A stretch of 28,845 nucleotides of DNA from a virus. This document shows, piece after piece, positions 8,207 to 28,692 of the stretch; positions within the stretch are counted from its first letter, which is position 1; the number at the start of each line of letters is the position of its first letter. A program made the position numbers and the translations under genes. The stretch is taken from positions 1 through 28,845 of the IMG/VR virus record IMGVR_UViG_3300032069_000042. One strand, 5' to 3'. Below the pieces are notes generated by a model that was not told where the DNA came from, searched no databases, and worked only from the letters and a program-made list of their open reading frames with translations.

Positions 8207-8824
8207 TTAGCTTCTCAATGCCTCCTCATATCCCCACTCGCACCGGCAGAACGGGTGCGCGGGTATAACCGCCAATGGACCGTACAGCGGGAACAGCTTG
8301 CCGTCCATGCCTGCGCAGTACCCGCATACGCGCTCATCTCCTTGGGTGATCCATACGGCGTGAAACTTGAACTCCGGTAGAATGAATTGCGCGGTGAAGA
8401 GGGGGGATTCGCCTACTTTGCCCTCGTTGCGCTGACGGTATGTGCTCAGCTTTCCCTCGTTGTAGAGGCTCCAGACGACCAGCTGCGCAATTATCTTCAT
8501 GCGGCTTTCAGCCTCGTCCCGAGTGATGACTTCCGCGTCGAGCTTAGACAAAACGTCCGCGAGATCCGAGGAATACTTTTCACGCTGACCCTGTATGGTG
8601 TCCATGCTGTAGTCTCCCAGCCCATACTCCCAGCGCTGCTTAAGCTCGGCAACCGCGACGAGGTGACCTCCAAAAAACGCTTTGAAGCCGTAAGCGCGTA
8701 TGATGCGTTTGCCATCCATCAGTGCCCGCATCTTAGCTTCTGCGAGGACTGACAAGAGGGCTTTAGCCAGCAGCGACTCCAGCTTCTGCGGCCTCAGGAC
8801 GGGTATGAGCTCGCGTACACTCAT
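8207..8824 (-). CDS. Minor head protein, Mu F/SPP1 gp7-like
   Basis: 205 aa, ATG overlapping the portal stop (ATGA). The C-terminus carries the family signature 'WITQGDERVCGYCAGMDGKL', then 'PLYGPLAVIPAHPFCRCEW': paired cysteines followed by an HPxCRC motif. The N-terminal two thirds are helical. In the family the product is packed with the head near the portal and aids assembly or DNA delivery. The order portal - minor head protein - protease/scaffold is standard. Confidence 0.85.
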   Translation of the reverse strand: MSVRELIPVLRPQKLESLLAKALLSVLAEAKMRALMDGKRIIRAYGFKAFFGGHLVAVAELKQRWEYGLGDYSMDTIQGQREKYSSDLADVLSKLDAEVITRDEAESRMKIIAQLVVWSLYNEGKLSTYRQRNEGKVGESPLFTAQFILPEFKFHAVWITQGDERVCGYCAGMDGKLFPLYGPLAVIPAHPFCRCEWGYEEALRS

Positions 8825-10236: not shown

Positions 10237-10578
10237 TTAAGCGGTCCGGATGAAGATGCCTGTACCCTTTTCTTCTCTCCGCGGCTTCTTCTCCGGCTCT
10301 TTCACCTTTTCTGCTGAAGGAAGCGACGAGGGGGCGGTTTCCAAGAAGTCCCTGCCCTTCTCCGTTATATGATAAAATTTTGCAGGCAGCCCTTTGTCAT
10401 TCTCCTCATGGTCGAACTCAATATATCCTTGCTTCAGGCAGTAGCGAATGTATCTTCCCGCTGTCGGGTTACTCCAGCCTGGCAGCTTGGCTATGCGGTA
10501 GAGGTTGGTATTTTCTTCGGCAAAAATCCGAAGAAGCTCTACGATCTTGTCTACGAAGAATTTCTCGGAGGCTGTCAA
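10237..10578 (-). CDS. Winged-helix transcriptional regulator
   Basis: 113 aa, TTG start at 10578. Residues 1-80 form a winged helix: 'KIVELLRIFAEENTNLYRIA', 'GWSNPTAGRYIRYCLKQGYI' (recognition helix and following strand), 'KFYHITEKGRDFLE' (wing and last helix, with the T-x-KG motif typical of archaeal wHTH proteins). A Lys/Glu/Pro-rich tail follows. Divergent from the membrane protein gene with an inverted repeat between them, and next to the tandem repeats before the portal. It probably regulates itself, its divergent neighbour or the structural operon. Confidence 0.75.
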   Translation of the reverse strand: MTASEKFFVDKIVELLRIFAEENTNLYRIAKLPGWSNPTAGRYIRYCLKQGYIEFDHEENDKGLPAKFYHITEKGRDFLETAPSSLPSAEKVKEPEKKPRREEKGTGIFIRTA

Positions 10579-10620
10579 GAGGGGCGGTCCCGTCTGGAGA
10601 ATGATGTGGAAAAGGAATAT

Positions 10621-10640
10621 ATATCCTTTCTATAGGATAT
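10621..10640. promoter_or_regulatory. Operator-like inverted repeat in divergent promoter
   Basis: ATATCCT-N6-AGGATAT, a perfect 7-bp inverted repeat with a 6-bp spacer, in the 91-bp gap between the winged-helix gene and the divergent membrane-protein gene. It overlaps an AT-rich TATA-like stretch (10617-10624). Likely bound by the adjacent regulator. Confidence 0.55.
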
Positions 10641-10669
10641 AGAATAGAAAGGAGGTGGAAACATAGAGA

Positions 10670-11527
10670 ATGAATTACTTGACCTTAGCCTATGCGGTGA
10701 TCTCGGCCATTGTCTATGCCGCCTCATTCTACATTAAGAACCGACAATCGACTGACGAGACCTTTGACCCAACTAAGTTTGCTGCGACATTGATCGTTGG
10801 CTTGATTATTGGCATAGTAGCGATGTTGACCTGTAGCCCGTTGACTGAGCAGGATGTGATTACGCAGCTGATCGCCTATGCTGGTTTGGTCACCTTCATC
10901 GAGACATGGCTTAAGACAGTGTTCAGAGGAGCGAAGCAGCAGGAACAGTTCACGCTTGCGATGCAGGGCTTAGCGGCAGCCATAGGGCTGAGGAAAGAGC
11001 AGCAGCCGAAACCGGCAACACCGACGCCCACGGCACCGGAGGCCCCTGCGACCATAGAAGACATCAAGAGGTCTGAAGACCAGCTGAGCGACCGGAGAAG
11101 AATGGAATACGAACTCGAGAGAGCGATCTACGCTGAACAGACGAGACAGAGGCAGGAGGCCATAAACCAGGGCATGAACGAGGCGGAGGTGGCGAGCAGG
11201 ATCAACCTAGGCACGTTCTACGACTGGGACAAGATCAACCAGATCATCGAGGACTATCATGCTAAGATGCCGCCGGCGCCCGACATCTACTATGTCACGA
11301 CTTCGCCGCCGGCTGGGGGCATTGTCGTGGACGGAGAAAGAGTCTACGGCGTGAACGTGCTCGGCTACACGCTACCCGGCATACACACGAGGAGCGTACT
11401 CTACATCGTTGAGAACGGGAAGACGGTCTACCTAGAGTTCCTAGGAGGCAAAGAGGAATACGTCGGCGGCCAGCAATTCATAATACCAATGTACAGAAGA
11501 GTCGGTGAACGGCCACCGACACAATGA
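10670..11527 (+). CDS. Membrane protein with cytoplasmic-type coiled tail (holin-like N-terminus, unknown function)
   Basis: 285 aa, ATG at 10670 with a strong GGAGGTGG 12 nt upstream. Three hydrophobic segments (about residues 5-22, 38-55, 66-83: TLAYAVISAIVYAASFYI, FAATLIVGLIIGIVAML, VITQLIAYAGLVTFIETW) are followed by a Pro/Thr-rich linker near 110-128. Then comes a charged helical region (SEDQLSDRRRMEYELERAIY) and a beta-rich C-terminal domain (IVVDGERVYGVNVLGYTLPG). The membrane part has the size of a phage holin, but the large C-terminal part is unusual for one. Could act in lysis/egress or be a cell-surface accessory protein. G+C content is like the structural genes, not the defence genes. 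Confidence 0.6.
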   Translation: MNYLTLAYAVISAIVYAASFYIKNRQSTDETFDPTKFAATLIVGLIIGIVAMLTCSPLTEQDVITQLIAYAGLVTFIETWLKTVFRGAKQQEQFTLAMQGLAAAIGLRKEQQPKPATPTPTAPEAPATIEDIKRSEDQLSDRRRMEYELERAIYAEQTRQRQEAINQGMNEAEVASRINLGTFYDWDKINQIIEDYHAKMPPAPDIYYVTTSPPAGGIVVDGERVYGVNVLGYTLPGIHTRSVLYIVENGKTVYLEFLGGKEEYVGGQQFIIPMYRRVGERPPTQ

Positions 11528-11566
11528 CCGCGCGTGCGGACGAATAGGCGCCGCAACAGAACTAAG

Positions 11567-11821
11567 TTAGTCTGAGTAGAGAGAATAGCTACATATGACA
11601 ATCTCAGCGAGTAACTGCGCTATTGTCTGAGGAACATCGTTAGGACCTTTAAGTCCAACATCAAAAACATGACAGAAGTCATTGAACACATTGAAGGTGT
11701 TTTGATGACTCAACACAAGATACAGATTTCTTTCGTTATTACAGGATAGTTTACTTTTTATCTGAATATGCCAGTGTATCAGGCCGAATTCCTGTAAAAA
11801 GCTCTTATTCTGATATGACAT
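11567..11821 (-). CDS. Doubtful small ORF (84 aa) before hsdM
   Basis: The only sizeable frame in the 464-bp gap between the membrane protein and hsdM. Begins MSYQNKSFLQEFGLIHW and ends EIVICSYSLYSD. No ribosome site or TATA box is obvious and the composition is AT-rich. May be a decayed gene from the cargo block's acquisition. The rest of the gap (11822-11970) shows nothing recognisable. Confidence 0.2.
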   Translation of the reverse strand: MSYQNKSFLQEFGLIHWHIQIKSKLSCNNERNLYLVLSHQNTFNVFNDFCHVFDVGLKGPNDVPQTIAQLLAEIVICSYSLYSD

Positions 11822-11976
11822 ATAACAGAAGACGTTTTGAAATTCTTACGCTCCTACCGGAATTATGGGTTTTACAAGGTTTTTCCCAGATAGCTGAAAG
11901 GAAGAAATCTATTCAAACGAGTGCGTGCGAAATGACTTAACCAATAAGGGCATTAGAGTGTTCCATTCACAAACGA

Positions 11977-11983
11977 TTTATAT
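11977..11983 (+). promoter_or_regulatory. TATA box of the hsd operon
   Basis: TTTATAT preceded by an A-rich AAACGA (BRE-like). Transcription about 25 nt downstream (near 12005) would leave a short leader that includes GGGGAG at 12010-12015 before the ATG at 12019. Confidence 0.5.
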
Positions 11984-12018
11984 GAAGCATCTTGGCAATC
12001 ATGATTAGAGGGGAGACG

Positions 12019-13539
12019 ATGGCTGAAAAGGATATTGATTTTGAAAGTAAATTGTTCAGTGCCGCCGATAAACTTAGGAGCAATATGGATGCTGCTGATT
12101 ACAAGCATGTTGTTCTTGGGTTAATTTTTCTAAAATATGTGTATGATGCCTTTGGTCAACTTCATAGAAAACTCGCTTCCGAAAAAGCAAAAGGTGCTGA
12201 CCCTGAGGATCCAGATGAATATAGGGCGGAGAATGTTTTTTGGGTTCCAAAAGAAGCTCGTTGGGATTTCCTACAGAAGAATGCGAAGCAACCAACTATA
12301 GGGAAGCTTGTTGACGATGCAATGGTCGCTATTGAAAGAGATAACCCCTCGCTCAAAGGAGTGTTGTCTAAGGATTATGCTCGACCCACATTAGATAAGC
12401 AGAGGCTGGGAGAGCTAATAGATCTAATCGGAACCATTGGACTTGGAGATGCTACGAGCAAGAGCAAAGACGTTTTGGGAAGAGTCTATGAGTATTTTCT
12501 AGGGCAATTTGCGGACGCCGAAGGAAAGAAGGGCGGTCAATTCTACACTCCGCGAAGTATTGTCAAATTGCTTGTTGAGATGCTTGAGCCATATAAAGGC
12601 AGAGTCTATGACCCCTGTTGTGGTTCAGGCGGAATGTTTGTTCAAAGCGAAAAATTTGTACACGCACACGGGGGAAGAATTGGAGACATCTCCATCTATG
12701 GTCAAGAATCAAACCCAACAACTTGGCGCTTATGCAAAATGAATCTTGCCATTCGTGGCATAGACGCAGATATTCAGTGGGGAGACAGCTTTCACAATGA
12801 TTTGCACAAGGATTTGAAGGCAGATTTCATTCTTGCAAACCCGCCTTTTAATGACAGCGACTGGAAAGGAGATCTTCTTCACAAAGATATACGGTGGAAA
12901 TATGAAGTGCCACCGACTGGAAATGCTAATTTTGCTTGGGTTCAGCACTTCATCTATCACTTATCGCCTACAGGAATTGCTGGTTTTGTCCTTGCAAACG
13001 GATCCATGTCTTCAAACACATCTGGGGAAGGTGACATACGAAAGAACATTGTAGAAGCAGATTTGGTTGACTGTATGATAGCACTGCCTTCTCAATTGTT
13101 CTACAACACAATGATTCCAGCTTGCTTGTGGTTCGTAGCGCGAGACAAGAAAAACTACAAGTTTCGCGACAGGCGGGGCGAAGTCTTGTTTATCGACGCC
13201 AGAAAAACGGGGGCGATGATCGACCGGCGCCACCGCGAGCTCACGGGCGAACAAATAGCAAGAATTGCCTCAGTTTACCACGCGTGGCGCGGCGAGGGTG
13301 GAAAGTACGAGAATGTGCCCGGCTTCTGCAAGGTCGTGAAGCTCGAAGAAATCAAGAAACACGGGTTCATTCTCACGCCAGGACGCTATGTTGGCACTGA
13401 AGCGGAGGAGGAAGACGACGAAAAATTCGAGGAAAAAATGAAGAAGCTTACTTCCGAATTATCCGAACAATTCAAGAAGTCAAAGGAGTTGGAAAAAGAA
13501 ATCTCCCAAAATCTGAAGAGGATCGGATATGAGCTATAG
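12019..13539 (+). CDS. hsdM: Type I restriction-modification methyltransferase subunit HsdM
   Basis: 506 aa from ATG 12019, chosen over in-frame starts at 11992 and 12001 because GGGGAG precedes it and the family begins here ([20 protein letters not shown]). N-terminal HsdM_N helical domain (1-150). N6-adenine methyltransferase domain with SAM motif I '[11 protein letters not shown]' (D198) and catalytic 'NPPF' (274-277), plus the '[12 protein letters not shown]' and '[11 protein letters not shown]' hallmarks. Charged coiled-coil C-terminus for subunit contact. Methylates adenine in the site recognised by HsdS. First gene of a four-gene operon with overlapping ends. A stretch near 13140-13400 is clearly more GC-rich than the rest. 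Confidence 0.95.
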
Positions 13540-13960
13540 AGAACGTGCAAAGCAATGGTATGAACGAGCTTTGGGCGAGAAAGACCCGTTCGTAATGTTC
13601 TTGCTATATTATGTTGCTCTAGAAGTCACTGTAAAGCTGCGTGATAGCAGCATAAGAGATCTGAAACAGGATGTGGACCTTCGAAAGTATGTTTTTAGTT
13701 ATGTGTCTATGGAGCAAAGAACTGAACTTCTGAAAGCACTTGAAACTCAGCCTCTGATTAATGAGAATCCATCTGGAGATCATCGTTGGGATGGGAAACT
13801 TGACACTTCGGACGATTTTGCAGGCATTATTGAGTTTATTATCAGAGCCAGAAACAATCTATTCCATGGAGATAAAGGACTGAACGAGGAAAGAGACCGA
13901 CAGGTAATCGGATGGGCGAATGTATTTCTTAGGCCTATTGTTGAGAGACTGATTGCATGA
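13529..13960 (+). CDS. HEPN-like protein inside the type I RM operon
   Basis: 143 aa, start overlapping the hsdM stop by 11 nt, and its stop overlapping the hsdS start by 4 nt. All-helical: [35 protein letters not shown], then [18 protein letters not shown] with the HEPN catalytic signature R-x4-H (R108-N-N-L-F-H113) and a final helix ([16 protein letters not shown]). HEPN proteins are commonly RNases or their helical partners, and some (PrrC/RloC logic) sit within hsd operons as back-up suicide nucleases triggered when restriction is blocked. Here the product has only the HEPN domain and no ATPase. Nuclease function is inferred from the motif. Confidence 0.72.
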
Positions 13961-15201
13961 AAAAAGAATTAAAATGGAAAGAAACCGAAATCGGGAAAAT
14001 CCCTGAAGACTGGGAATTGGAAGAATTGGGTAAGTTAGGCGAAGTTGCTACTGGTAAAAGAACTAAATGTTCAGAGTACGGAGAATACCCAGTAATTGGT
14101 TCGAATGGACTTATGGGTTATTGTAATGATTATTTAGAAGATGAAAACATAATTTATACGGGAAGAGTCGGAACAATAGGTAAGATAAATTATCAAAAAA
14201 AGGGAAAAATTTGGCTATCAGATAATGTTTTATATTTTAAGACAAGAAACGCAGAACTGCTCAAGTTCATCTATTACTTCTTAAAGGGAATTGATTTTTC
14301 TTATCTCAATGTAGGGAGCACCCAACCACTAGTAAAACAATCCGACTTCAAGAAATTGTTCATACCTGTTCCAAAGAATGAAGATGAATTAAGACTACTG
14401 GCAAAAACCCTATATGACATTGATTCCAAAATCGAGCTTAACCAGCAAATGAACAAGACTCTCGAAGCAATCGGGCAAGCAATTTTCAAACGTTGGTTTG
14501 TTGACTTTGATTTTCCAGATGAGGAAGGCAAGCCATATAAATCAAGCGGCGGCAAAATGACAAGCTCAGCACTGGAACCTATCCCAGAAAATTGGAAAGT
14601 GGATAGGCTGGAAAGGTTTGGCAAAATAGTGTGCGGGAAGACTCCTTCAAAATCGATTAAGCAGTATTTCGGTGGAGCTATTCCCTTTATCAAAATCCCT
14701 GATATGCACAATAAGGTATTTGTCACAGAAACAGAAGATTCGCTGACTGAAGAAGGTGCGAGATCACAGAGTAACAAAACAATACCAAGTGGATCAATTT
14801 GCGTCAGTTGTATTGCTACAGTAGGGCTGGTCAGTATTACTAGCAAAGATTCGCAGACCAATCAACAGGTAAACTCGATAGTTCCAAACAGGATTTCTCA
14901 CACCTATTATTTGTTCTATCAGATGAAGAGTATAACTGATCATTTGAACAACCTTGCGAGTGGTGGTTCTACCACCTTGAATCTGAATACACGCATCTTT
15001 TCCAAGATGGAAATTCTTAGACCCGAAGAAACCGTTCTTGAGCGATTTCACGGAATATTGAAGCCTCTGTTTGATGATATGTTGACTAATCAATGTCAAA
15101 ATCATAAACTTGGACTCGTCAGGGACACTCTTCTTCCAAGGCTTATGACCGGCAAAACCAAGGTTAAGGGTTACGCACAGGATTCGGGTATGATTGCATG
15201 A
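13957..15201 (+). CDS. hsdS: Type I restriction specificity subunit HsdS
   Basis: 414 aa with two target-recognition domains. TRD1 is about residues 1-150, starting near '[22 protein letters not shown]'. It is followed by a central conserved helix ([20 protein letters not shown], then [11 protein letters not shown]). TRD2 starts at the equivalent '[22 protein letters not shown]' and the protein ends in the second helix ([13 protein letters not shown]). The half-repeat layout defines a bipartite DNA target, which cannot be read from sequence. Start overlaps the HEPN stop, and its stop overlaps the HsdR start. Confidence 0.94.
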
Positions 15202-18200
15202 TAGCTGTAATGGCTGAATCCTATGTTGAAGATGCTGTTCTTGAATATCTGTCCGAATTAGGTTATAAGGTATTGTTTGGTCCGGATACCGCTCCGGATG
15301 GCAAGACACCTGAAAGAAAGAGTTACTCCGACGTTGTTTTAGTCAAGAGATTGAAACGTGCTGTTGACCGGTTCAATTCTGAAATACCAGCGGAGGCTAG
15401 AGAAGAAGCGATCAGAAAACTATTGAGAACGGAAAGCCCGCAGCTCGTTATTAACAATCTGAGTTTTCACAGAATGCTTGCTAACGGCATTGATGTTGAA
15501 TACAGTAGAACTGATGGAAGCATAGCCGGAGACAAGGTTTGGCTTTTTGATTTTGAAAATCCAGAAGAAAACGAGTTTCTAGCTGTCCACCAGTTCACAG
15601 TTATTGAGAACAACAATTCGAGGAGACCGGACATCGTTCTCTTTGTCAACGGTCTACCGTTGGTTGTTATTGAACTCAAAAACCCAGCTGACGAGAATGC
15701 GACGATTTTAACCGCTTTCAATCAGTTTGAAACTTACAAGAACCAGATTTCTTCATTATTTCACTTTAACGAAATACTTGTCATCAGCGACGGAGTAGAG
15801 GCGAGAGCTGGGACAATAACTTCAGGCCAAGAATGGTTTCTGCCTTGGAAAACCATCGAAGGAAGAGAGACAGCTCCGCCAACGATGTCACAGTTAGAAG
15901 TACTCATCAGAGGAATGTTTGACAAGAGAAGGTTGCTTGATCTAGCAAGACATTTTGTGGTCTTTGAACAAGAACGTCAAAAAACTTCCAAGAAAATCGC
16001 CGCGTATCACCAATATCATGCAGTCAACAAAGCTATTGAAGCAACAATCAAAGCGTCAAGCGCGAGAGGAGATAAACGATGTGGCGTCGTTTGGCATACA
16101 CAAGGCGCTGGAAAGAGTCTGAGCATGGTCTTTTACACTGGGAAGCTCGTCTTGTCGCTAGATAATCCGACGATCGTTGTACTTACAGATAGAAATGATT
16201 TAGACGATCAGCTGTTTGATACATTCAGCCGCTGCCTCGAATTGCTACGACAAAAACCTGTTCAGGCAGAATCAAGAAGCATGCTGAGAGAACTTCTCAG
16301 AGTGCCTTCCGGCGGCATCGTTTTCACAACAATACAAAAATTTCTTCCAGAGCAGAAAGGTGATCGTTATCCTCTGCTCTCAGAAAGAAGAAATATAGTT
16401 GTCATAGCGGACGAGGCTCACAGAAGCCAGTATGATTTCATCGATGGGTTCGCGAAGCACATGAGAGATGCTTTACCTAATGCTTCTTTCATTGGCTTTA
16501 CAGGTACGCCGATAGAAAAAGCGGACAGAAGTACTCCTGCAGTTTTTGGTAATTATATTGACGTTTATGATGTGACACAAGCGGTAGAGGACGGCGCAAC
16601 AGTAAGGATTTTTTATGAAAGCAGACTGGCAAAACTTGACTTGAAACCAGAAGAAAGACCAAGGATCGATCCGGAGTTTGAGGAAGTCACAGAAGGCGAG
16701 GAAGTAGAAAAGAAAGAAAAGTTGAAGACCAAATGGTCAAGGCTCGAAGCAATAGTCGGAACTGAGAAACGTGTCAAATGTATCGCTAAAGACATCGTGA
16801 ACCACTTTGAGCAACGCCTCAATGTCCTTGATGGGAAAGGAATGATTGTCTGCATGAGTAGGCGTATCTGCGTTGAACTTCACAATGAAATCGTCAAAAC
16901 AAGACCTGAATGGTACGATGCAGATGACGACAAGGGCCTCATCAAAGTTGTTATGACAGGCTCTGCTAGCGACCCAATAGATTGGCAGGGACACATAAGG
17001 AACAAAACAAGACGCAAGGCGATTGGCGAGCGAATGAAAGATCCTGCTAACCCTCTGAGACTGGCAATAGTGAGGGATATGTGGCTGACAGGGTTTGATG
17101 CCCCAAGTCTTCACACCATGTACCTTGATAAGCAGATGCGGGGTCACGGATTAATGCAGGCAATTGCGAGGGTAAACCGTGTTTTCAAAGATAAGCCTGG
17201 AGGGCTTGTCGTTGACTATTTGGGAATAGCTGACGAGCTGAAGAAAGCACTCGCTGAATACTCTGAAAAAGACAAGAAAGAGACAGGTATCCCGCAAGAA
17301 GAAGCCATCGCGTTGATGCTTGAGAAATACGAAATAGTGTCTGCGCTGTTCCATGGCTTCAATTACAGAGATTTCTTTACAGCAACACCGAGAGAAAAGA
17401 TGGCTATTATTCCATCAGCTATTGAGCATATTCTAAGACAAGAAGATGGTAAAGAGCGGTTATTGCGATATGTTACTGAATTGTCAAAGGCATTTGCTCT
17501 TGCTGTACCCAGTGATGAAGCTCTCAGAATTCGTGACGATGTAGGGTTCTTTCAAACAATTCGATCCAGTATAGCCAAGACCGCCATAATTACTGGTAAA
17601 CCACAAGAAGAATTGGATTCTGCAATAAAACAGATAGTGTCCAAGGCTATTGTCTCGGATAAAGTCATAGACATTTTCTCTGCTGCTGGACTGAAAAAAC
17701 CTGACATCTCAATACTTTCAGACGAATTCTTGGCTGAGGTTAAAGGATTACCTCATAAGAATCTTGCGTTTGAATTGCTCAAGAAACTACTTAATGATGA
17801 GATAAGAATCCGGTCAAGAAAGAATCTGATCCAAGGAAAATCGTTTGCCGAAATGTTGGAGAAATCGATCAAAAAATATCAAAACAAGAGTATAGAGACC
17901 GCTCAAATCATTGAAGAGTTGATTGAACTAGCAAAAGAGATGCGAGAAGCAAAGCTTAGAGGAGAGAAACTGGACTTAAATGAAGAAGAGCTTGCTTTCT
18001 ATGATGCGCTTGAAGTAAATGACAGCGCAGTTAAGGTATTAGGTGATGAAACTCTAAGAATGATTGCGCGAGAACTCGTTGATGTTATTCGTGAAAACGT
18101 GACTATTGATTGGACGCTGAGGGAGAGCGTGCAGGCAAAACTAAGGGTGATGGTAAAAAGAACTCTAAAGAAATATGGCTATCCTCCAGATAAACAGAAA

Positions 18201-18263
18201 AAGGCTACGCAAACGGTATTAGAACAAGCAAGTTTGATTTGCAGAGACTGGGCCGAGATCTGA
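15198..18263 (+). CDS. hsdR: Type I restriction endonuclease/translocase subunit HsdR
   Basis: 1021 aa, full family length. The ATG overlaps the hsd[24 protein letters not shown] begins at residue 5, so a Met here could also serve as start. N-terminal nuclease: D145 in 'RRPDIVLF' and E159-x-K161 in 'VVIELKN'. SF2 motor: Walker A '[10 protein letters not shown]' (about 300-308), DEAH at 405-408 ('[11 protein letters not shown]'), motif III '[10 protein letters not shown]', motif VI-like '[10 protein letters not shown]'. Helical C-terminal region joins HsdM. Translocates unmethylated DNA and cuts at a distance. All catalytic residues are present, so the system looks functional. Confidence 0.95.
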
Positions 18264-18302
18264 TCTTCAAAAGCTCTTTCTTTTGCGCGCGCGATGCGCA
18301 CG

Positions 18303-18316
18303 GTAAAACGTTTTAC
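18303..18316. other. 14-bp perfect palindrome between convergent genes
   Basis: GTAAAACGTTTTAC lies in the 86-bp gap between the end of hsdR and the end of the EVE-domain gene, next to an alternating GCGCGCGC tract (18284-18293). It may be a terminator shared by two convergent genes or a junction scar; there is no U-rich tail long enough to decide. Confidence 0.4.
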
Positions 18317-18349
18317 GTATGGGTCTAGGCGCGCAGAGGATCTGATAGG

Positions 18350-19270
18350 CTAATCAGTTTTCCACTTTAGCATTTTTTCTACGAAATCTTTGTAGCGGAT
18401 TACAGTATCGTATAGATTGACAAGTTCATCGTAAAGCAGCACTTTGGTATGTCTGATTCTGTGAAAGGAACCGGTGAAGTATGGGTTAAGGTATTGCTCT
18501 GTCTTCTTTCTATCCTTTTCATCCGTAACAATCAAGAATAGGTCGGCACGCCACTTGTCTTGCGCGTGTTGGAGATTTATCAGGGAGTCCTTTAGCATCC
18601 CCTTATGCTGGACTTCAAAGACCTTATGCGGGGGAAGATGCTCTGTTTCCTTCCAGACAACATCGAATCTATATGACTCATTAGCAAATTCATCTTTACT
18701 GTACCATCCGCACACTTCGCCCAGCTCGACCAGCTTCTCTATGGCGTCTTTGTGCTGGTTCGCTGGTGATGGTTCTCCCCCCTCTTCCCTTAGAGGCTTC
18801 GGTCTAGATGGTTCACGTGCCTCTCGGAAGGTGACGCTTGTCGGCGGTTTCTTCATCTCTTCGTATATCAGTTGATAGTCTTCGTCAGAAATCGGTCTCT
18901 GAAGGTTGGAAGGGGTCCCAACCAGGTAGACGTTCCATTTATCTTTATTCTCAACGAAGTTCAGTCTTGAAGAAAGCTCTTTGTAATTCGCCGTTCCTAA
19001 CTGTATGAGCTCTATATCGCTTTGCCAAGGATACAGGATCCTCCCTTCCTTAACCTCGCTATGCCAAACAGGCTCCTCTGCCTGGCGCCAATTTCCAACT
19101 ACTTTGTATAGGCCTAGAAAAGAAGGAGGATCAGACCTGGTGATATAAAAAATTATGCGATCTCCAGCCTTAATCTTGTCACGTATCTTTTCCGTACGAA
19201 CGGCCCAAAAATTCCTCTCTTTTAAAATCTCCCAATTTTCACGGGAACATGAGAATATCCAATTTGTCAA
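18350..19270 (-). CDS. EVE-domain protein fused to a PD-(D/E)XK-like nuclease domain (putative type IV restriction)
   Basis: 306 aa, TTG start at 19270. Residues 1-140 follow the EVE/PUA-like fold: 'NWIFSCSRENWEILKERNFW', then 'IKAGDRIIFYITRSDPPSFLG' and 'EVKEGRILYPWQSDIEL'. This fold reads modified bases such as 5mC or 5hmC in DNA. A disordered Pro/Glu linker (145-172) leads to a C-terminal domain with E182/E185, D203 ('YRFDVVW') and E219-V-Q221 ('VFEVQHK'), followed by 'RADLFLIVTD'. This is a PD-(D/E)XK-like core with Gln in place of Lys. Reader plus nuclease suggests cutting of modified DNA. Transcribed against the hsd operon, beside the GmrSD-like gene. Confidence 0.68.
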   Translation of the reverse strand: MTNWIFSCSRENWEILKERNFWAVRTEKIRDKIKAGDRIIFYITRSDPPSFLGLYKVVGNWRQAEEPVWHSEVKEGRILYPWQSDIELIQLGTANYKELSSRLNFVENKDKWNVYLVGTPSNLQRPISDEDYQLIYEEMKKPPTSVTFREAREPSRPKPLREEGGEPSPANQHKDAIEKLVELGEVCGWYSKDEFANESYRFDVVWKETEHLPPHKVFEVQHKGMLKDSLINLQHAQDKWRADLFLIVTDEKDRKKTEQYLNPYFTGSFHRIRHTKVLLYDELVNLYDTVIRYKDFVEKMLKWKTD

Positions 19271-19585
19271 TCAAGAACACAGTTTTAGCTAAGATTTCAA
19301 GACATATAAGGTTAAAGGCAAACAAGAAAGACCACTCCGATGTTTTAGTAAATCTTTGCGACAGCGAAGCGCAGAGCAGGGCTCTTCTCTCCGATGTAGA
19401 CAATATGACACTTGTCCAGAACCAATTGTTGTGGTTTCCTCTGATGCATACACGAATGGACGGAATGGAAAGACTAATATCGACCAAATTATGAGAACAT
19501 CTAAAAGAGGAGGTTAAAGTCTTGCGACGTTCATTATTCTTAGAAGTCATAGATGTTACTTTAACCGTTCACGAAGGGTAAGTTG

Positions 19586-21403
19586 ATGAGTCATTTATTC
19601 ATACCCTCTACAGAGCCAATAAGTTTTATGCTACAAGAAATAGACGAGGGCAAGCTTGTCCTTCCAGCGTTTCAGCGAAGATTTGACTGGGACTACAGAA
19701 GACAAGACGCTTTGATTAGAACGATCCTAAATGAGTATCCGGCAGGAAGTATACTATTCTTGCAACAGCCAAAGGAGGAGGCTTTAGGCAAACGTTTGTT
19801 TGAGGGAGTGGCTCCATTAAAAGAGTCAACGCCTCCTAACCGTATAGTATTGGATGGACAGCAGCGCCTAACAACTCTTTATCATGTCTTTTACGGAAAG
19901 AGCGGTAACCACATATTTTACGGGAAGAGCGCTCGCAGAGCCATCATAAACATCAGCAAAGTCGAGGAGTACTTCAGCAAAGAATGGAAATTGCCGGATA
20001 GTAGCGAGGAATCGGGAATTGATCTTGTCAAAAATTCAGTCGAGTTTATGGACGCCGGTACTATAGACATTCACTATGGTCATCTTCAAGAACAGTTCAA
20101 TAGAAGTATGTTGCCGTTGACATGTGTGTTTGAGAAAGAGTACCCGGTTTGGGAAAATGGACAGAGAAGGAGCATCGGATTTGATGAATGGAAGACTAAG
20201 TATGCTGAATCTCGTGAACCCTCAGATCAAGTAAAGCGGCTTGAGTTACACAGGAAGTTAGACGAAATCAAGCGCAGGTTGATTGAGCCGATTCAAAGAT
20301 ATTCTTTTCCTGCTGTTCTCTTACGTGAAAAAACAGAGCCACAAGCAGTGTGCCAAGTGTTTGTAGATCTCAACATCCAACAGAAACCACTCGTTCCGTT
20401 TGAGGTTGTAGCCGCAAGGGTCTGGCCTTTCAAAATAGACCTATACAAGAGATGGGAGGAAGCTGAGAAGAAATCTATATTGAAAGACTCCTCCTCAGAA
20501 AAAGCTATCGACCGGGTATTGCCTTTAAAAACCATCGCTTTGCTTCAAACCTCGAAAAGTAATCCAACACACATTTCATGTACGAAAAGAGCACTTTTTG
20601 AAATCGAGCCTCGTAACTTTGAGGAGCCATGGGAAAAGGCCGTGAAGGCTTTGGCCGAATCTCTATCATTGCTAAAAGGAGAGGCTGGTGTACTTCACCC
20701 TAAGTGGCTGCCTTACTCTGCGCTTCTTGCTTCGATGGCTGCAACGCTTGTAGATTCTGAAGACGGCGGATTCCCAAAAGAAGAGGTAAGACGCAAACTA
20801 TTATGTTGGTTCTGGTGTTCTGTATTTACTAGAGCCTACGATAGCGGTACCGACAGCCAAAATGCCTGGGATTTTGCACAACTGAAAGAGTGGATACAAG
20901 GCGGTGATGACCCTTACGCGGTCAAGAATTTCTCATCACTCTTCAATCCAGCAGTCCTGAAAACTGTCTATGGGCAAAGAGAAGGTTTGTACAAAGGTGT
21001 TTTCTGCCTTCTTTTGAAACATCACGCTAGAGACTTCAATACAACACAAAGTATCAATACAAGTCTTTTGCTACAAGAAAAGATCGAGGACCATCATGTT
21101 TTTCCTGACGCTTATCTCCAGAGAATCGGTGTTAAGGACTGGGTCCAAAGGAATTGTGTCCTAAACCGTGCCTTAATAGATGCAACGACTAACAAGACCA
21201 TTCAAGACCAGCCGCCTTCAAATTACCTCAAGGGCATTAAGCAAAAGATTGGAGATGTAAAACTAAGGGAAATTCTGGAATCGCAGCTTCTTCCATCGAG
21301 GGCTGACTCAGGTCTATTCACAGATAACTACAAAGAATTTCTGCAAGAGCGGGAAAAAAGCCTTATTGAAGAAATAGAAAAAGTGACGATATTACCACAA
21401 TGA
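19586..21403 (+). CDS. GmrSD-like type IV restriction enzyme (DUF262 + DUF1524)
   Basis: 605 aa from ATG 19586 (a TTG one codon earlier is possible). DUF262 domain: 'LVLPAFQRRFDW' near residue 26 and the ParB-like 'IVLDGQQRLTTL' near 88, the NTP-binding signature of GmrS. C-terminal DUF1524/HNH: 'DHHVFPDAYL' near 503, 'RNCVLNRALID' and 'TNKTIQDQPPSNYL', with the DHxxP and N...N residues of the GmrD nuclease. Both halves are in one polypeptide. Family members cut DNA with glucosylated or otherwise modified cytosines. A TTTA box at 19560-19563 would start transcription almost at the ATG, suggesting a leaderless message. Confidence 0.9.
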   Translation: MSHLFIPSTEPISFMLQEIDEGKLVLPAFQRRFDWDYRRQDALIRTILNEYPAGSILFLQQPKEEALGKRLFEGVAPLKESTPPNRIVLDGQQRLTTLYHVFYGKSGNHIFYGKSARRAIINISKVEEYFSKEWKLPDSSEESGIDLVKNSVEFMDAGTIDIHYGHLQEQFNRSMLPLTCVFEKEYPVWENGQRRSIGFDEWKTKYAESREPSDQVKRLELHRKLDEIKRRLIEPIQRYSFPAVLLREKTEPQAVCQVFVDLNIQQKPLVPFEVVAARVWPFKIDLYKRWEEAEKKSILKDSSSEKAIDRVLPLKTIALLQTSKSNPTHISCTKRALFEIEPRNFEEPWEKAVKALAESLSLLKGEAGVLHPKWLPYSALLASMAATLVDSEDGGFPKEEVRRKLLCWFWCSVFTRAYDSGTDSQNAWDFAQLKEWIQGGDDPYAVKNFSSLFNPAVLKTVYGQREGLYKGVFCLLLKHHARDFNTTQSINTSLLLQEKIEDHHVFPDAYLQRIGVKDWVQRNCVLNRALIDATTNKTIQDQPPSNYLKGIKQKIGDVKLREILESQLLPSRADSGLFTDNYKEFLQEREKSLIEEIEKVTILPQ

Positions 21404-21460: not shown

Positions 21461-22870
21461 CTAGAAGGTTTTAGCGAATATCGGTCCAGGCTTTGGCTCT
21501 TTCTCTGTTGCGTAGGTGGCTAGGGCGGTGGCCCAGAAGCGGTCGTCGTGGCTGCCTTCAGGGTGCGAGAATTTGATTTTACCGGTCTTCGCCAATTCGT
21601 ACCTTTCAACGTTTAGCTCATTGATCAGCGCCCGATCGTAGGGTAGCTTAAACTCGTTCTTGAGCATTTTCTCCTTGAGGACTGTGGCCAGCTCCTCCTT
21701 GCTCTGCTCCGTGAACATCACGCCTTCCACGTTCTGTATTCCAGCGTTCTTCATGTCCTCGGTGATGTATTCGCCGACGCCCGTCTGATCCACGCAGACC
21801 CGGTGAACCGTCTTCCAGCGGTCCGAGAGCGCCTTCACGTAGCCTATCACGCTCGCGTAGCTCGTCTTCAGGGGAAACCGGTAAACGTGGACCAAGCGGA
21901 GGCGGTCCTCCTTCTTTTCAACCGCGGTGACGACGCTGTAGTCCATGTGCTTGCCAAAGTCCACGCCGACGAAGAAGACGCCTACGGCAGCGTGCTCGAA
22001 AGGATAGTAGGTCCAGTCCCTGCCCTCGACGAGAGGCTCGGACGACACGCATTTGGCGATGAGGTCCTGAGGCAGCCAGACGTCCACGTCTTCGACGAAC
22101 TCGGCTTCAAACTCCATCGTGAACTGCTGAGGCAACATACTTACCTGCATATCGTCGATAAACGCTTGCGTGATGAGACCGGCCTCTACGGCCTCACGCC
22201 AATTCGCATAGTGTTGATTGAACCGGTTCTTCAATCGACCCTTACAAAACTCGTAGAACTGCGACTTCGACGACCAAGGCGTCGAACTCACTATCAGAAC
22301 GCCATTCGTCGTCGCCAGCATCGGCAGAAGCACATTGCTAAACATATACTCATCCCGCTCAAAGAAGGCCGCCTCGTCGGCCAAAATGAGGTGGGCTGTT
22401 AAGCCCCGGATCATGTTTTCGCTGCACGGCAGAGCCCAGATCCTGCTCCCGTTCCTGAAGGTGATCTTCGTCCGCTGCTGCTGAGCGATCAACTCACGCT
22501 TCACCGCCGGATCCATGCGGTTAAGGTGCTCCTCGATCCGGTCCATGACAATCATGCTCTGCCTGAGCCCAGGCGCCACCACCAGAATTGACTTATTCCG
22601 GTTCATCGCTGCCAGCGCGATAGCCTTGGCTGCTAGGGTCGTCGATTTTCCGCTCTGCCTCGAGAAGCGCACCGCGATCCTGTCCGAGGAATCGAGAAGA
22701 AGCCTAGCCTGGTAAGGCGTGGCCTTGAACCCTAACACACTCTCGGCAAACTCAATAGGGTCCATCTGGCCGATATCGGGCTGGACGATGATGGCGCTGA
22801 GGGCGTCTTCAAGCCGTCTCATGCCTTTCACGAGGCTCTTCCTAACCTTTCCTGAGAACCTGCTCCACAC
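21461..22870 (-). CDS. terL: Large terminase subunit
   Basis: 469 aa. ATPase: Walker A 'RFSRQSGKST' (68-77), motor segment 'SILVVAPGLRQSMIV', Walker B 'LILADEAAFF' (161-170), coupling motif 'LIVSSTPWS'. RNase H-like nuclease: D304 in 'FVGVDFGKHMD', D361 in 'VCVDQTGVGEY', and D442-D443 in 'SHDDRFWATAL'. Packages DNA through the portal. The frame opens at GTG 22870, overlapping the upstream HTH gene by 29 nt; ATG at 22822 (MRRLEDAL) is an equally good start. After the stop the virus operon is interrupted by the defence block. Confidence 0.92.
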   Translation of the reverse strand: MWSRFSGKVRKSLVKGMRRLEDALSAIIVQPDIGQMDPIEFAESVLGFKATPYQARLLLDSSDRIAVRFSRQSGKSTTLAAKAIALAAMNRNKSILVVAPGLRQSMIVMDRIEEHLNRMDPAVKRELIAQQQRTKITFRNGSRIWALPCSENMIRGLTAHLILADEAAFFERDEYMFSNVLLPMLATTNGVLIVSSTPWSSKSQFYEFCKGRLKNRFNQHYANWREAVEAGLITQAFIDDMQVSMLPQQFTMEFEAEFVEDVDVWLPQDLIAKCVSSEPLVEGRDWTYYPFEHAAVGVFFVGVDFGKHMDYSVVTAVEKKEDRLRLVHVYRFPLKTSYASVIGYVKALSDRWKTVHRVCVDQTGVGEYITEDMKNAGIQNVEGVMFTEQSKEELATVLKEKMLKNEFKLPYDRALINELNVERYELAKTGKIKFSHPEGSHDDRFWATALATYATEKEPKPGPIFAKTF

Positions 22871-23280: not shown

Positions 23281-23859
23281 TTACCTCAAAGCCGCCAATA
23301 CATCTAGAACGATTTTACCCAAGGATGTGGCCAGGAGCACCCAAATGATCTTCTGGTAGAAGCTCGCGTGCTCGAGACGCTCCTCGAGGACTGCAACCCT
23401 GACCTCGAGGCTCTGGATCCTCTCGTCCTTGGTCAGCTTCTTAGGCTTCTTCTCGGCTGGATTCGAACCCGCAAACCTCTTCAGGGCTACGTGGTTGTTT
23501 TCCTTAAAGGCCCATCCATCTTTTCTGCGCAGTATCTCTATGGACTCCTTCACGAACCTCCGGAGGCTCTTCTTAAGCCTAGGATCCAGGGCATCCCGCT
23601 GAATGATCTCGATCCTATCGATCATAGAGAACAGGATCACGTTATAGTGGTAGGCTGAGCCCTGATCGATGATCTCTTTGGCAAGCACGAGGTGCTTTCG
23701 CACCAGGCCCTTGACACCTAGGTAGAAGCCGGTGCTGTGAACGTGCGTCTCAACGTCTTGGCTAGGTTTCCCGGAGCTCACTTCACTGGCATCGTACCAA
23801 TAGACGTCGATCCGGTCGCCAAGCTTCAGTTTGCTAATCGCATCCTCGATGCTGCTCAT
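23281..23859 (-). CDS. Membrane-anchored Sm/SH3-like protein of unknown function
   Basis: 192 aa. The N-terminus looks like a small beta barrel: 'LKLGDRIDVYWYDASEV', 'STGFYLGVKGLVRKHLVLAK', 'YHYNVILFSMIDRIEII'. A basic helical segment (RLKKSLRRFVKESIEILRRK) and a Lys/Pro linker follow, then a coiled coil (ERIQSLEVRVAVLEERLEHA) and one C-terminal membrane helix (IIWVLLATSLGKIVLDVLAAL). Its ATG overlaps the Dam stop (ATGA) and its stop lies 4 nt before terS, so it belongs to the packaging transcription unit. A tail-anchored DNA- or RNA-binding barrel next to terminase is unusual. Confidence 0.6.
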   Translation of the reverse strand: MSSIEDAISKLKLGDRIDVYWYDASEVSSGKPSQDVETHVHSTGFYLGVKGLVRKHLVLAKEIIDQGSAYHYNVILFSMIDRIEIIQRDALDPRLKKSLRRFVKESIEILRRKDGWAFKENNHVALKRFAGSNPAEKKPKKLTKDERIQSLEVRVAVLEERLEHASFYQKIIWVLLATSLGKIVLDVLAALR

Positions 23860-24659
23860 AGCTTCAAGCCTCCTGACAGCGGATAGTTCGCGATCACCAG
23901 ATTGGTGAAGTGCGTTCTCTTCCCTCCGTCCTTCACCAAATTGCTGCTTCGGAGTTGCCTCGCCTCCTGAAAGCAGAAGCCGTGATAAAGCCTCCGGATC
24001 TCAGGGTGCTCGCCGTAGGTAAGCAGCCATTTCCCTTTAGTCTCGCCGAGGACCTTGCGGAGGTCCCTATGATCCTGCTCCGAGAAGTTGTGCCGATAAT
24101 ACTGTAGACCGTAGTAAGGAGGATCACAGAAGAAGAACGTCTCCGGCGTGTCCCAGTTACGGAAGCATATTCTGAAGTCTAAAGCATCTATGTAGACGCT
24201 CTTGAGACGATGAGCTATCTCCTCGATTTTTTCGATGCTGGACCAGAAGATGTCCGGCGCGTGTTTATGCGCCTTCCTCTTAAAAGCCCAGGAAGCCCCA
24301 TAGTTGCCTCCGAAGCTGCAACGCATGATGTAGTAGAAGTGCACCGCCCTCTCCACAGCATCCTCCGGCGTCGGCTCATCGAACCATCTCTTATAGAGGC
24401 CCCGGCTGTAGAAGACCAGATTGAAGCGCTTGACAAACTCCTCCCGCCTGTCACGGATCACGAGGAACAGGTTCACCAGATCGCTGTCGATGTCGTTATA
24501 GACCTCCACAGGACTAGGCGGCTTGTTAAGTAGCAGATTCGCCGCGCCTCCGAAGACCTCCACGTAGATGTGATGCGGAGGAACGAGTGGCTGAAGCGCC
24601 TTCAGCAGGTTGAACTTGCCTCCGATCAGAGGGAAGAAGCAGGTCCTAGCAACCAACAT
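23856..24659 (-). CDS. dam: D12-class DNA adenine-N6 methyltransferase (orphan)
   Basis: 267 aa from ATG 24659. Motif order of the Dam/D12 class: SAM-binding 'FFPLIGGKFNLLKAL', then 'VEVFGGAANLLLNK', 'EVYNDIDSDLVNLF', and catalytic 'FFFCDPPYYGLQYY' (DPPY near 179-182). A GTG at 24674 extends the frame by five residues, but the TATA-like box at 24690-24697 is only about 20 nt from it. The ATG gives the same promoter spacing as the other copy of this promoter. No partner nuclease is adjacent. May mark viral DNA against host or viral restriction, or time packaging. Target unknown, so the symbol is a class label. Confidence 0.88.
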   Translation of the reverse strand: MLVARTCFFPLIGGKFNLLKALQPLVPPHHIYVEVFGGAANLLLNKPPSPVEVYNDIDSDLVNLFLVIRDRREEFVKRFNLVFYSRGLYKRWFDEPTPEDAVERAVHFYYIMRCSFGGNYGASWAFKRKAHKHAPDIFWSSIEKIEEIAHRLKSVYIDALDFRICFRNWDTPETFFFCDPPYYGLQYYRHNFSEQDHRDLRKVLGETKGKWLLTYGEHPEIRRLYHGFCFQEARQLRSSNLVKDGGKRTHFTNLVIANYPLSGGLKL

Positions 24660-24683
24660 CGAATCGGCTGACACGCAGCGAGA

Positions 24684-24981: not shown

Positions 24982-25734
24982 ATGTTCAAGCTTAGTCCTT
25001 CTACAGTGAGAATCATAGCTGAGAAAACGAGTAGGATAAGAGAGTATGATATCAAGGGCGTTCTAAAGAAATTAGGAATCATAAAGAATGATGAAGATTA
25101 CTGGAATATACTTTCCGACCATATCGACTCAACTTCAGCAAGCAAGGAGGCAAAAATCGAAGCTATTCTCAATAATCTTCAGGGAAGCGAGAGGATTCTT
25201 GGGGTAATAGTTGAGCTTGTTGCAGCAAACCCGCTATCCTCTGAAGACATCAAAGAAATAAACCGGTATTTGGTTCGTGACGGGTTACGATATGACAGCG
25301 AAAAGAATACAATATATCCTTTTATGAGAGGTATGGAGGAGGAAAAGAAGATCACAAACGAGTTGGATGAACTTCTCATCAAGATCGATCCTAACTTTGC
25401 CAAAATCCATAATGGAGCTTGGGAAGCTCTTTCATCTGGTACAGGTGATAGTTATAGACAGAGCATCTCTTCTGCAAGAGAGCTCCTTAACCAAGTTCTG
25501 AGGACATTAGCTCCGGGAGAAATGACTCGCAGAAAGCGCATAAAACAGATTTTGGGTTCGTCACGTCGGGCGAAGCTACTTGATGCCATCTCAAAGGTTG
25601 TAGAAGAACTCTATGCACAGCTTTCAACCGGAGAACATACAACCCCTAACTTGCTGGATACCATGTTAGCCCTGAAGCTCACTGAATACACCCTCTACTA
25701 TATTCTTAAGATGAGGTTACAAAGAGAGCCTTAG
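24982..25734 (+). CDS. Unknown helical protein, possibly abortive-infection related
   Basis: 250 aa, ATG at 24982. Almost wholly helical and charged. First part: 'TVRIIAEKTSRIREYDIKGV', 'KEAKIEAILNNLQGSERILGVI'. The second half has 'HNGAWEALSSGTGDSYRQSISSA', 'RELLNQVLRTLAPGE', 'RRKRIKQIL' and a closing helix 'LALKLTEYTLYYILKMRL'. The 'AWEALSSG...RQ..SSARELL' layout reminds me of helical effector or HEPN-like domains in phage-defence proteins, but the R-x4-6-H catalytic motif is not evident. It stands alone near attR with AT-rich composition. Function not assigned. Confidence 0.6.
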   Translation: MFKLSPSTVRIIAEKTSRIREYDIKGVLKKLGIIKNDEDYWNILSDHIDSTSASKEAKIEAILNNLQGSERILGVIVELVAANPLSSEDIKEINRYLVRDGLRYDSEKNTIYPFMRGMEEEKKITNELDELLIKIDPNFAKIHNGAWEALSSGTGDSYRQSISSARELLNQVLRTLAPGEMTRRKRIKQILGSSRRAKLLDAISKVVEELYAQLSTGEHTTPNLLDTMLALKLTEYTLYYILKMRLQREP

Positions 25735-25897: not shown

Positions 25898-26281
25898 TCA
25901 CCTTGGGAAGCATCTCGGCGAATGCATCTCGCTTAGAGTTTTTCTGACTCCACGCTTGATTATCTCTATGGAGCCACATTTGGGACAGGCTAATGTTTGT
26001 GTGTATGCTTCTTCCACCCCTTCGGTTTGAGAGCCTCCTATTATTGTGTCTCTGGCTTTCAAAGTTTGTGCTAGGACTACGGCATGGATGTGTTTGCAGA
26101 CTACACCTCTCATCTGGTAGTCTGGACATTGGCATGACCATTCTAGGCCTAGTCTTGCCACTATGTAAGTTGCTTCACTGCTTTGGCTCTTCACTGCATA
26201 GGTTACATCATCTATCTTGTGGATATTTTTCTGTAAGACGATGGCTTTAAGCTGGCGTTTGTCGAGAAGTTTCGTTTCCAT
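25898..26281 (-). pseudogene. Truncated SWIM-finger/zinc-ribbon transposase-like ORF
   Basis: 127 aa, ATG at 26281. SWIM finger C50-x-C52...C62-K-H64 ('WSCQCPDYQMRGVVCKHIHA'), then the first half of a zinc ribbon, 'CPKCGSIEIIKRGVRKT'. Some archaeal insertion-sequence transposases have this N-terminal order, followed by 'RYRCKDCG' and a DDE catalytic domain. Here the sequence diverges right after RKT and stops, with no second Cys pair and no catalytic domain downstream. Best read as a transposon remnant, though a free-standing SWIM protein is possible. Confidence 0.55.
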
Positions 26282-26316: not shown

Positions 26317-26414
26317 AAAGAACCTTTAATGATCTTCATTATATCGTCCGCGCAATGGCTAATATCACGCGCAGGGTCTGCAACCTATGCATTGAGTTGT
26401 TTTTCCAGGAGTTA

Positions 26415-27266
26415 CTAGAAAAGGTTGTCCAGTCTCTGGTAGGTTGTTATGTCTCTCAGTTTTTTCAGGTATTCTTCATATGTTGTTGGATTGTTTAGCA
26501 TCATGTTGAGTCGCCAGACCTGATTAGTTTGCTCCACAAAACAGAGGTTGTGTCTTTCACCTGACTGCACAGCATCTAAGAGTTTTCGCTCTCGATCTTT
26601 CTCAAAAGCATAGTTATGTCCTTCAAGTATCTCGCGAACTGTCCCAACTGTAAAGCGTGTATCCCTGTATCTAAAAGCTCTTTCCCACAACTTAGTGAAA
26701 ACCATTTTCTCAAGCAAAACTATTGGCGAGTCGGGCTGAATCTCGATCTGGTGGGGAGGAAGATGGTATAATGACAAGCCTCCTTTCAAAAGCGAGTCAA
26801 GTTGAACATCACCATGGTTGCCAGCGATCAATGTTATTTGAAGTCCCCTTTCACAAGCCCATATTAGAATATCTCTTTCAAAACTTAATTTAGACAAAAG
26901 TTCGTTCTTCAGGTCAGGGTCAGAGTCTAATTTGTCCTTGAAGTAGAGCAGGATTACCTTTTGTGCAGTTTTTTGAAGACCTGTTTGCTTCGTTATGAGA
27001 GAGGGGGGAATATTCGCATATTCTTTTGCTTGCACCAAATCGTCCTCAGATGGCTTTCCCGCTTTGCACTCAATGATTAGAACAATTCTGTCGTTCCAAA
27101 CCATAAGGTCTGGCGTCCAAGAATCATTACCTCCATGGATCAACGGTGTGGTATGTGGATTTGCAAAACCACAGGTATTAAGAGCAGCATTTTTCTGAAA
27201 AAGCGAAAGAGCCCAGTTTTTGAGATCCGTATGATCCATGTGCTCTCTATAAGAAAGACCAATCAT
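26415..27266 (-). CDS. PD-(D/E)XK nuclease-like protein, second gene of attR-proximal cassette
   Basis: 283 aa from ATG 27266; a GGAGG at 27276-27280 stands 9 nt upstream and lies within the end of the upstream gene. The core is 'WTPDLMVWNDRIVLIIECKAG' with D53, E66 and K68: the D-x12-E-x-K of restriction-like nucleases. It is preceded by a helix and followed by the expected helix 'EDDLVQAKEYA'. A C-terminal region (TVGTVREILEGHNYAFEKDR, LCFVEQTNQVWRL) resembles a winged helix. It begins 1 nt after the stop of the 377-aa gene, so the two are coupled. Likely cuts nucleic acid; target and trigger unknown. Confidence 0.65.
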   Translation of the reverse strand: MIGLSYREHMDHTDLKNWALSLFQKNAALNTCGFANPHTTPLIHGGNDSWTPDLMVWNDRIVLIIECKAGKPSEDDLVQAKEYANIPPSLITKQTGLQKTAQKVILLYFKDKLDSDPDLKNELLSKLSFERDILIWACERGLQITLIAGNHGDVQLDSLLKGGLSLYHLPPHQIEIQPDSPIVLLEKMVFTKLWERAFRYRDTRFTVGTVREILEGHNYAFEKDRERKLLDAVQSGERHNLCFVEQTNQVWRLNMMLNNPTTYEEYLKKLRDITTYQRLDNLF

Positions 27267-27267
27267 C

Positions 27268-28401
27268 TTACGCATCCTCCGATTTAGCAACAAGGATTGA
27301 ATCGACATCTAATTTCTCAAGAACGGTGTGATAAATGCGGTCTATAGTTCTGGATCCAGTAGTGGTTGTCGGGTGGATGATAATGGTGTCCTTTGAGATT
27401 GGTATTTCGACAAGCGCATCACCTCCTCCAGCAATATCTGTTGTATGAATCAAGCACAATGATTCGGATTTCTTTTCGATTGTTCCTAAGAAATTGCTAT
27501 GACAGAAGTTTTGGGTGAAGAGGCCTATTGTCTTATTGAAACCCGTTGAATCAATTTCTTTGCCTAACTTGATGAGGATCGGTTTTGACTGTTGGATGAT
27601 CTCCTTGGAGACCATTTCCGTTTCCGTCTCTGAATCTTCCACGACTTTGATACGGCTTACTGGAATACTACGAAGTATCTCCTCGTTTTTGACCGAAAGA
27701 TAATTTAGCACTCGTTTTCTCATCTCCAGAAAGAGATCTTTATCTCCCCTTTGAATCTGTCGAAGTCTGCCATCTATGTCTATGCGGATTCTACAGGTTC
27801 TTTCTTCGGAGGAGGAGCGGGTTATTCTTAAGTCTGCACTAGTTAGCATGAGAGGCCCAACAGGTCTGTTCTCAACAAGAGTCACAAAGTCATCAGGAAC
27901 GTTAGAAGATTTGTAATTCAAGTCCGCAAAATTGCGCCGAATACTTTCATGGGGGTTCCCTACTTCAATTGAGAAATAGTCTCGTTGCGCTTTGAAGGCA
28001 ACAAGTTCTTGATTAGGATCAAATGATTTCATTACATTCTTGATGAAACTGGGAGGAATCAAAGCATACCCAAGTCTTGGTATAAATCTGATTAAAGCAT
28101 CTAATGTTCGACGAAAGCGTGGCGATTCAAGCGTGTATATTTCCCAAAGTGCATTGTCTAGATGAGACAAAATGTGGAATATATGTTCTTCATAAACGCC
28201 TGGTGTTTTGGAAGGTCTTTCCAAGTCAATAAACTTCAGAATCCATTCATCGGCCATCGGCCCTTTTAGGTCAACCTGAAGAGTTCTTGTGGCCGATTCA
28301 AACTTAGGCAACCATTCTTCTCTCAGTTCACTTGGTGACCCGAGCTCAGACCAGACAAAAGTCTCTTTAATTACACCTTTTCGTTCAAAACCTGACAGCA
28401 A
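27268..28401 (-). CDS. Unknown 377-aa protein, first gene of attR-proximal cassette
   Basis: Starts at TTG 28401; an in-frame stop lies directly before it, so the frame cannot start earlier. No domain is recognised. The N-terminal third is helical (EEHIFHILSHLDNALWEIYT, RFRRTLDALIRFIPRLGYAL). The middle is mixed, with 'DLRITRSSSEERTCRIRIDI' and a Glu-rich stretch. The C-terminus is beta-rich with a Gly-rich turn ('CLIHTTDIAGGGDALVEIPI', 'DTIIIHPTTTTGSRTIDRIY'). Tightly coupled to a nuclease gene next to the attachment site, so a sensor or specificity role for that nuclease is plausible but unproven. Confidence 0.65.
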   Translation of the reverse strand: MLSGFERKGVIKETFVWSELGSPSELREEWLPKFESATRTLQVDLKGPMADEWILKFIDLERPSKTPGVYEEHIFHILSHLDNALWEIYTLESPRFRRTLDALIRFIPRLGYALIPPSFIKNVMKSFDPNQELVAFKAQRDYFSIEVGNPHESIRRNFADLNYKSSNVPDDFVTLVENRPVGPLMLTSADLRITRSSSEERTCRIRIDIDGRLRQIQRGDKDLFLEMRKRVLNYLSVKNEEILRSIPVSRIKVVEDSETETEMVSKEIIQQSKPILIKLGKEIDSTGFNKTIGLFTQNFCHSNFLGTIEKKSESLCLIHTTDIAGGGDALVEIPISKDTIIIHPTTTTGSRTIDRIYHTVLEKLDVDSILVAKSEDA

Positions 28402-28426
28402 CTAGGTGACTGCTCCAATAACAAAA

Positions 28427-28457
28427 TTATCCATAGACCGTTTTATCCATAGACCGT
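28427..28457. repeat. Tandem 15-bp repeat upstream of the attR-proximal cassette
   Basis: TTATCCATAGACCGT at 28427-28441 and again at 28443-28457 (period 16). Just upstream of the cassette's TTG start and about 210 bp from the att core. Could be an operator for the cassette or a recombination arm site. Confidence 0.5.
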
Positions 28458-28548
28458 ATTACTTAAAAAGATTCGGATTTATCGGCGATGAGCCTCTTAA
28501 CATAATGAAACCTGCGAACGAGGGTTGTTAACTCTTCGGCACAGTTCA

Positions 28549-28605: not shown

Positions 28606-28666
28606 AATTGAATTTTCATCTATAGGATAAAAAAGAGGGAAGGTGGCGGGTCAAATTCACCCCGCG

Positions 28667-28692
28667 GGGTTCAAATCCCGCCGGGCCCGCCA
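28667..28692 (+). other. tRNA 3'-end fragment, attachment site (attR)
   Basis: The segment holds the T-loop GGGTTCAAATCCC, the acceptor 3' strand CGGGCCC, discriminator G and an encoded CCA. The matching 5' acceptor GGGCCCG and the D and anticodon arms are absent upstream, and the 5' side of the T-stem does not pair correctly beyond three bases. This is what remains when a virus integrates in a tRNA 3' end and restores the full gene at the other junction. The acceptor fits a tRNA starting GGGCCCG (tRNA-Arg-like in archaea); identity is a guess. Confidence 0.7.

Follow-up and report, generated by a model that had tools for sequence, protein, structure and literature searches.

The window, by which we mean the whole 28,845-base stretch analysed (an IMG/VR virus record), carries tail tube, portal and terminase genes and appears to be a partial provirus whose right end lies inside it, the record ending without the other provirus end. 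Close to this right end, two adjacent minus-strand genes encode a 377-aa protein (p377) and a PD-(D/E)XK-like nuclease, in the following arrangement:

25898-26281, minus strand: transposon remnant with a SWIM zinc finger, adjoining the cassette downstream of the pair (PF04434, E 1.4e-6)
26415-27266, minus strand: PD-(D/E)XK-like nuclease, 283 aa, second gene of the pair (open reading frame; motif residues P52 D53, E66, K68, Q79 A80 Y83)
27268-28401, minus strand: p377, 377 aa, of no known family, first gene of the pair (open reading frame; TTG start right after an in-frame TAG)
27276-27280, minus strand: GGAGG Shine-Dalgarno sequence of the nuclease, within p377, 9 nt before the ATG
28402-28434, minus strand: in-frame ATG (28434), TAG at codon 11, then the TTG start of p377
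28427-28457, minus strand: perfect 15-bp tandem repeat ACGGTCTATGGATAA, two copies with a period of 16, between the TATA-like box and p377; candidate operator
28462-28470, minus strand: putative archaeal TATA-like box CTTTTTAAG
about 28663-28692, plus strand: tRNA 3'-end-like fragment (T-arm, acceptor, ending CCA), recognised by eye; putative attachment site

Both open reading frames are real, coupled, coding-like genes. The tight coupling described in the initial annotation is as claimed: the p377 stop codon TAA is followed by a single base and then by the nuclease ATG at 27266, and the GGAGG lies inside the upstream gene. The nuclease frame has an additional upstream ATG at 27308, overlapping p377. 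Judged against codon use in the other window genes, frame-1 log-odds are +0.10 and +0.11 for the two frames and negative in every other frame, a fit that holds in the stated frames only. The p377 frame stays open for 377 codons, versus a mean of 117 and a maximum of 218 for the longest frame in 300 simulated runs of 4 kb. The GC content of the pair is 0.415-0.417, against 0.562 for the terminase and 0.553 for the portal, and the restriction-modification (RM) cargo in the window lies at 0.43-0.45. The nuclease gene terminates in tandem stops, TAG TAA (26412-26417, minus strand).

The product of the second gene is likely to belong to the PD-(D/E)XK superfamily, judging by its motif. Residues 49-84 (SWTPDLMVWNDRIVLIIECKAGKPSEDDLVQAKEYA) place PD, E-x-K and QAxxY elements in the arrangement seen in restriction-type enzymes of this superfamily, and the intact D-x12-E-x-K core reported earlier is there, as D53, E66 and K68. 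The same part of the protein yields its sole Pfam signal, a match of residues 47-85 to HSDR_N_2 (PF13588, the PD-(D/E)XK domain of restriction enzymes) that at 14.4 bits (E 0.041) is below the cut-off of 25. The nuclease resembles HSDR_N_2 in the order of the three elements, but it has no helicase domain and no attached HsdM or HsdS, and its remainder matches nothing. It likewise shares a superfamily-level motif with the Cas4-type nucleases of archaeal viruses, yet profile search matched it to neither Cas4 nor PDDEXK_1. With a pLDDT of 37.9, the AlphaFold model built from the single sequence is poor; the secondary structure that it assigns around the motif, weak at this pLDDT, runs helix-strand-strand-helix-strand, which fits the PD-(D/E)XK fold, and the segment at residues 187-255 (helix-helix-helix-strand-strand) hints at a C-terminal winged helix. 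Because no relative of the nuclease was found, conservation of the catalytic residues is not demonstrable.

For p377, profile searches against Pfam, NCBIfam, PHROGs and PADLOC gave no above-chance match and the PDB no credible sequence match, which agrees with the earlier statement that this partner belongs to no known family. Candidate matches to Pfam 'Ripply' (E 0.06) and PDB HapE (E 0.9) were judged to be chance, and a C-terminal 'DIAGGGD' was rejected as methyltransferase motif I, there being only about 50 residues after it and no methyltransferase profile match. The single-sequence structure model of p377 is unusable (pLDDT 34.8). Fold searches with the models of both proteins returned nothing at E <= 0.001, a result without meaning for models of pLDDT 35-38. 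The profile and structure searches proposed in the initial annotation have yielded the sub-threshold HSDR_N_2 signal for the nuclease and nothing for p377, and its idea of p377 as a sensor finds no support in a protein with no family match and a model of this quality.

We searched for relatives of the pair at several levels. Neither protein has one in Pfam, NCBIfam, PHROGs, PADLOC or PDB, and the known anti-phage systems of PADLOC-DB 2.0.0 gave 0 families for either. Comparison of both proteins by tblastn with 50,697 phage and 72,556 plasmid records returned nothing at E 0.1; extended to E 10, the nuclease search found only IS66-type and other chance-level matches in plasmids and none in phages, while p377 had none in plasmids to E 10 and none in phages to E 0.1. 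Peptide scans of IMG/VR and 84,980 genomes recovered no relative of p377 or the nuclease. When nuclease motif patterns were scanned against IMG/VR, two had 0 matches and a third had 49, none of them similar by tblastn; the one match to a fourth pattern, a protein reading like ribonucleotide reductase, was rejected. The nuclease motif scan of genome contigs gave 0 matches. Peptide and motif scans detect distant relatives poorly, and the sensitive tblastn search covered phages and plasmids; the pair is rare in phages and plasmids, and the scans used do not imply a wider absence. A second copy of either gene occurred in none of the collections searched (phages, plasmids, IMG/VR and the 84,980 genomes), so that the undescribed two-component anti-virus module put forward in the initial annotation is neither shown nor refuted by this recurrence check.

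The genomic setting of the pair can be read against a related provirus (L002/L056), whose terminase is 66% identical to that of the window and which shares 66-74% DNA identity with it across many genes. Past the shared D12 methyltransferase, this provirus carries a GmrSD protein with both domains (PF03235+PF07510) and, in the same region, a DUF5655-like protein that narrowly misses its cut-off. At L056 2828-5923, an Eco57I/TaqI-like methyltransferase gene adjoins a gene for a 337-aa nuclease-like protein, which has a PDLM...E-x-KA...QAxxY motif and a weak EVE-like C-terminal match. These two genes resemble the window pair in their adjacency, in having the nuclease-like gene second, in lying in the corresponding end region and in the motif. 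They differ in that the first gene encodes a methyltransferase, which p377 is not, and the nuclease-like proteins share the motif only: the best BLASTP match between them (E 0.07) runs through a different segment, and from these sequences homology outside the motif is not demonstrable. Since two members carry different restriction-type cargo, the end region looks, in the two records compared, like a variable slot for restriction cargo, and because the relative's restriction-type genes occupy the same end region, the pair is probably DNA-defence cargo. Among the observations made, this difference in cargo speaks most strongly for a defence role. The window itself also carries type I RM, GmrSD/HEC-05-like and EVE genes. 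Together with the end-region cargo of the relative, these lend support to the earlier view of this location as a place for accessory defence cassettes. Archaeal tailed proviruses are reported to carry RM, DISARM, pPIWI and further defence genes as cargo (PMC11705971).

The immediate borders of the pair are in part as first described. The transposon remnant next to the cassette is confirmed by its SWIM zinc finger, and it intervenes, with an opposite-strand gene, between the pair and the nearest methyltransferase gene, that of the D12 enzyme (23856-24674). A 250-aa protein encoded at 24982-25734 (plus strand) matches pP_pnuc_1 (PF18165, predicted pPIWI-associating nuclease) above the cut-off, though over only 50 of 133 positions, and no pPIWI gene was identified in the window. 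The attachment site claimed on the other side holds up less well: the tRNA-like 3' fragment can be made out by eye, but neither ARAGORN nor Rfam calls a tRNA at 28663-28692, and no second att copy was found in the window. Past this fragment, the opposite strand carries a short open end (IEASTEDVKK...HEVTGP) that has no Pfam family match and may be host sequence. Promoter type and gene kinds suggest an archaeal-like host, and the virus genome seems to lie integrated within an archaeal chromosome.

By sequence, the pair belongs to none of the catalogued defence systems tested. It departs from type II restriction-modification in that p377 has no methyltransferase match and no cognate DNA methyltransferase is adjacent. 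The reading that we favour, at somewhat less than an even chance, is that the pair forms a restriction-type cargo cassette, which an archaeal-type tailed provirus carries in its variable end region. This reading draws on the coding character and coupling of the two genes, the catalytic-type motif and the weak secondary structure around it, the restriction-type cargo of the relative and of the window itself, the RM-like GC content and the defence cargo reported for archaeal tailed proviruses; the promoter-region tandem repeat is likewise an observed feature. We propose that the second gene would encode a DNA endonuclease of the PD-(D/E)XK type whose C terminus probably forms a DNA-binding winged helix, and that p377 would be its partner, produced from the same mRNA at a matched dose and most likely either recognising or licensing the DNA target or restraining the nuclease until the target is met. 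The complex, expressed from the integrated provirus, would then cut the DNA of incoming rival viruses; that the enzyme is active, that the two proteins form a complex, what p377 does and that the purpose is anti-viral are what we infer here. Against this reading, no methyltransferase or other self-protection gene lies directly beside the pair, and we also count against it that no relatives were found to show conserved catalytic residues or recurrence of the pair, the HSDR_N_2 score below cut-off, the doubtful 5' end of p377 and the blank PADLOC result.

The pair might instead perform a virus function and not act in restriction: it could serve viral recombination, process the genome, degrade host DNA or counter host defences. 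Archaeal viruses can carry Cas4-type PD-(D/E)XK nucleases (PMC10848311), and one virus relative (L003) has a PDDEXK_1 protein. However, the p377 and nuclease genes are missing from both virus relatives compared, their GC content is cargo-like, and they are located at a variable end beside a transposon remnant, and we regard a virus function as unlikely. A bolder form of the defence reading, to which we give a similarly low probability, is that of an undescribed two-gene anti-virus system borne by an archaeal provirus against rival viruses, in which p377, as a new family, would sense or mark invading DNA and direct a PD-(D/E)XK-winged-helix nuclease to it. If a defence role of the pair is real, on either reading, the little-known defence cargo carried by archaeal proviruses would gain a compact nuclease-partner module, and the end region of the virus would prove to be a place where restriction-type cassettes are exchanged; at present there is one case, unreplicated, with a partner protein that falls outside known families.

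The region upstream of p377 bears on a further alternative. Repeats like the one before p377 arose in 0 of 2000 simulated 120-nt stretches; the tandem repeat is possibly a regulatory site, and possibly too a simple slippage duplication. As an autoregulatory operator, it would suit a toxin-antitoxin-like or addiction pair, in which p377 restrains the nuclease and the provirus is thereby kept in the host. The tight coupling with p377 first, the position of the 15-bp repeat between the TATA-like box and the start, and the winged-helix-like nuclease C terminus (weak and model-based) are consistent with this idea, but an antitoxin of 377 aa would be very large and no TA family is matched, and we consider an addiction role quite unlikely.

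Returning to the restriction-type cassette, whether its first gene is intact depends on how the start of p377 is read. This start is doubtful, and the N terminus possibly damaged, because the TTG is immediately preceded by a TAG, and this TAG shares its frame with an ATG further upstream. That ATG, at 28434, sits near the transcription start expected from the TATA-like box, and the frame read from it runs MDNFVIGAVT, TAG, LLSGFERK.... Going by the sequence, either the TTG would be the true start or the gene would contain an early nonsense codon. Recoding of TAG throughout the virus (as pyrrolysine) was dismissed as the general code, since about ten window genes use TAG as an ordinary stop; a single recoded TAG codon ahead of p377 is possible. 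That the cassette is a decaying, non-functional remnant which has lost the true p377 start would accord with the ATG, ten codons, TAG and TTG and with the transposon remnant next door. Against this, the TTG could serve as a start, with GGAG 11 nt upstream and TTG starts in other window genes; apart from this 5' end, the two frames run uninterrupted and look coding-like, and the catalytic-type motif is retained. We think decay as improbable as addiction.

Elsewhere in the window, the portal (8821-10140) and terminase (21461-22870) genes, which are adjacent in L002, are split by about 11 kb. Between them, positions 10237-21403 hold hsdM, a MauJ-like gene, hsdS, hsdR, an EVE-domain gene and the GmrSD/HEC-05-like gene, and constitute a restriction island within the packaging/head gene block. 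The MauJ-like gene (143 aa; 13529-13960, plus strand; E 7e-4, below cut-off) lies between hsdM and hsdS of the type I RM operon.
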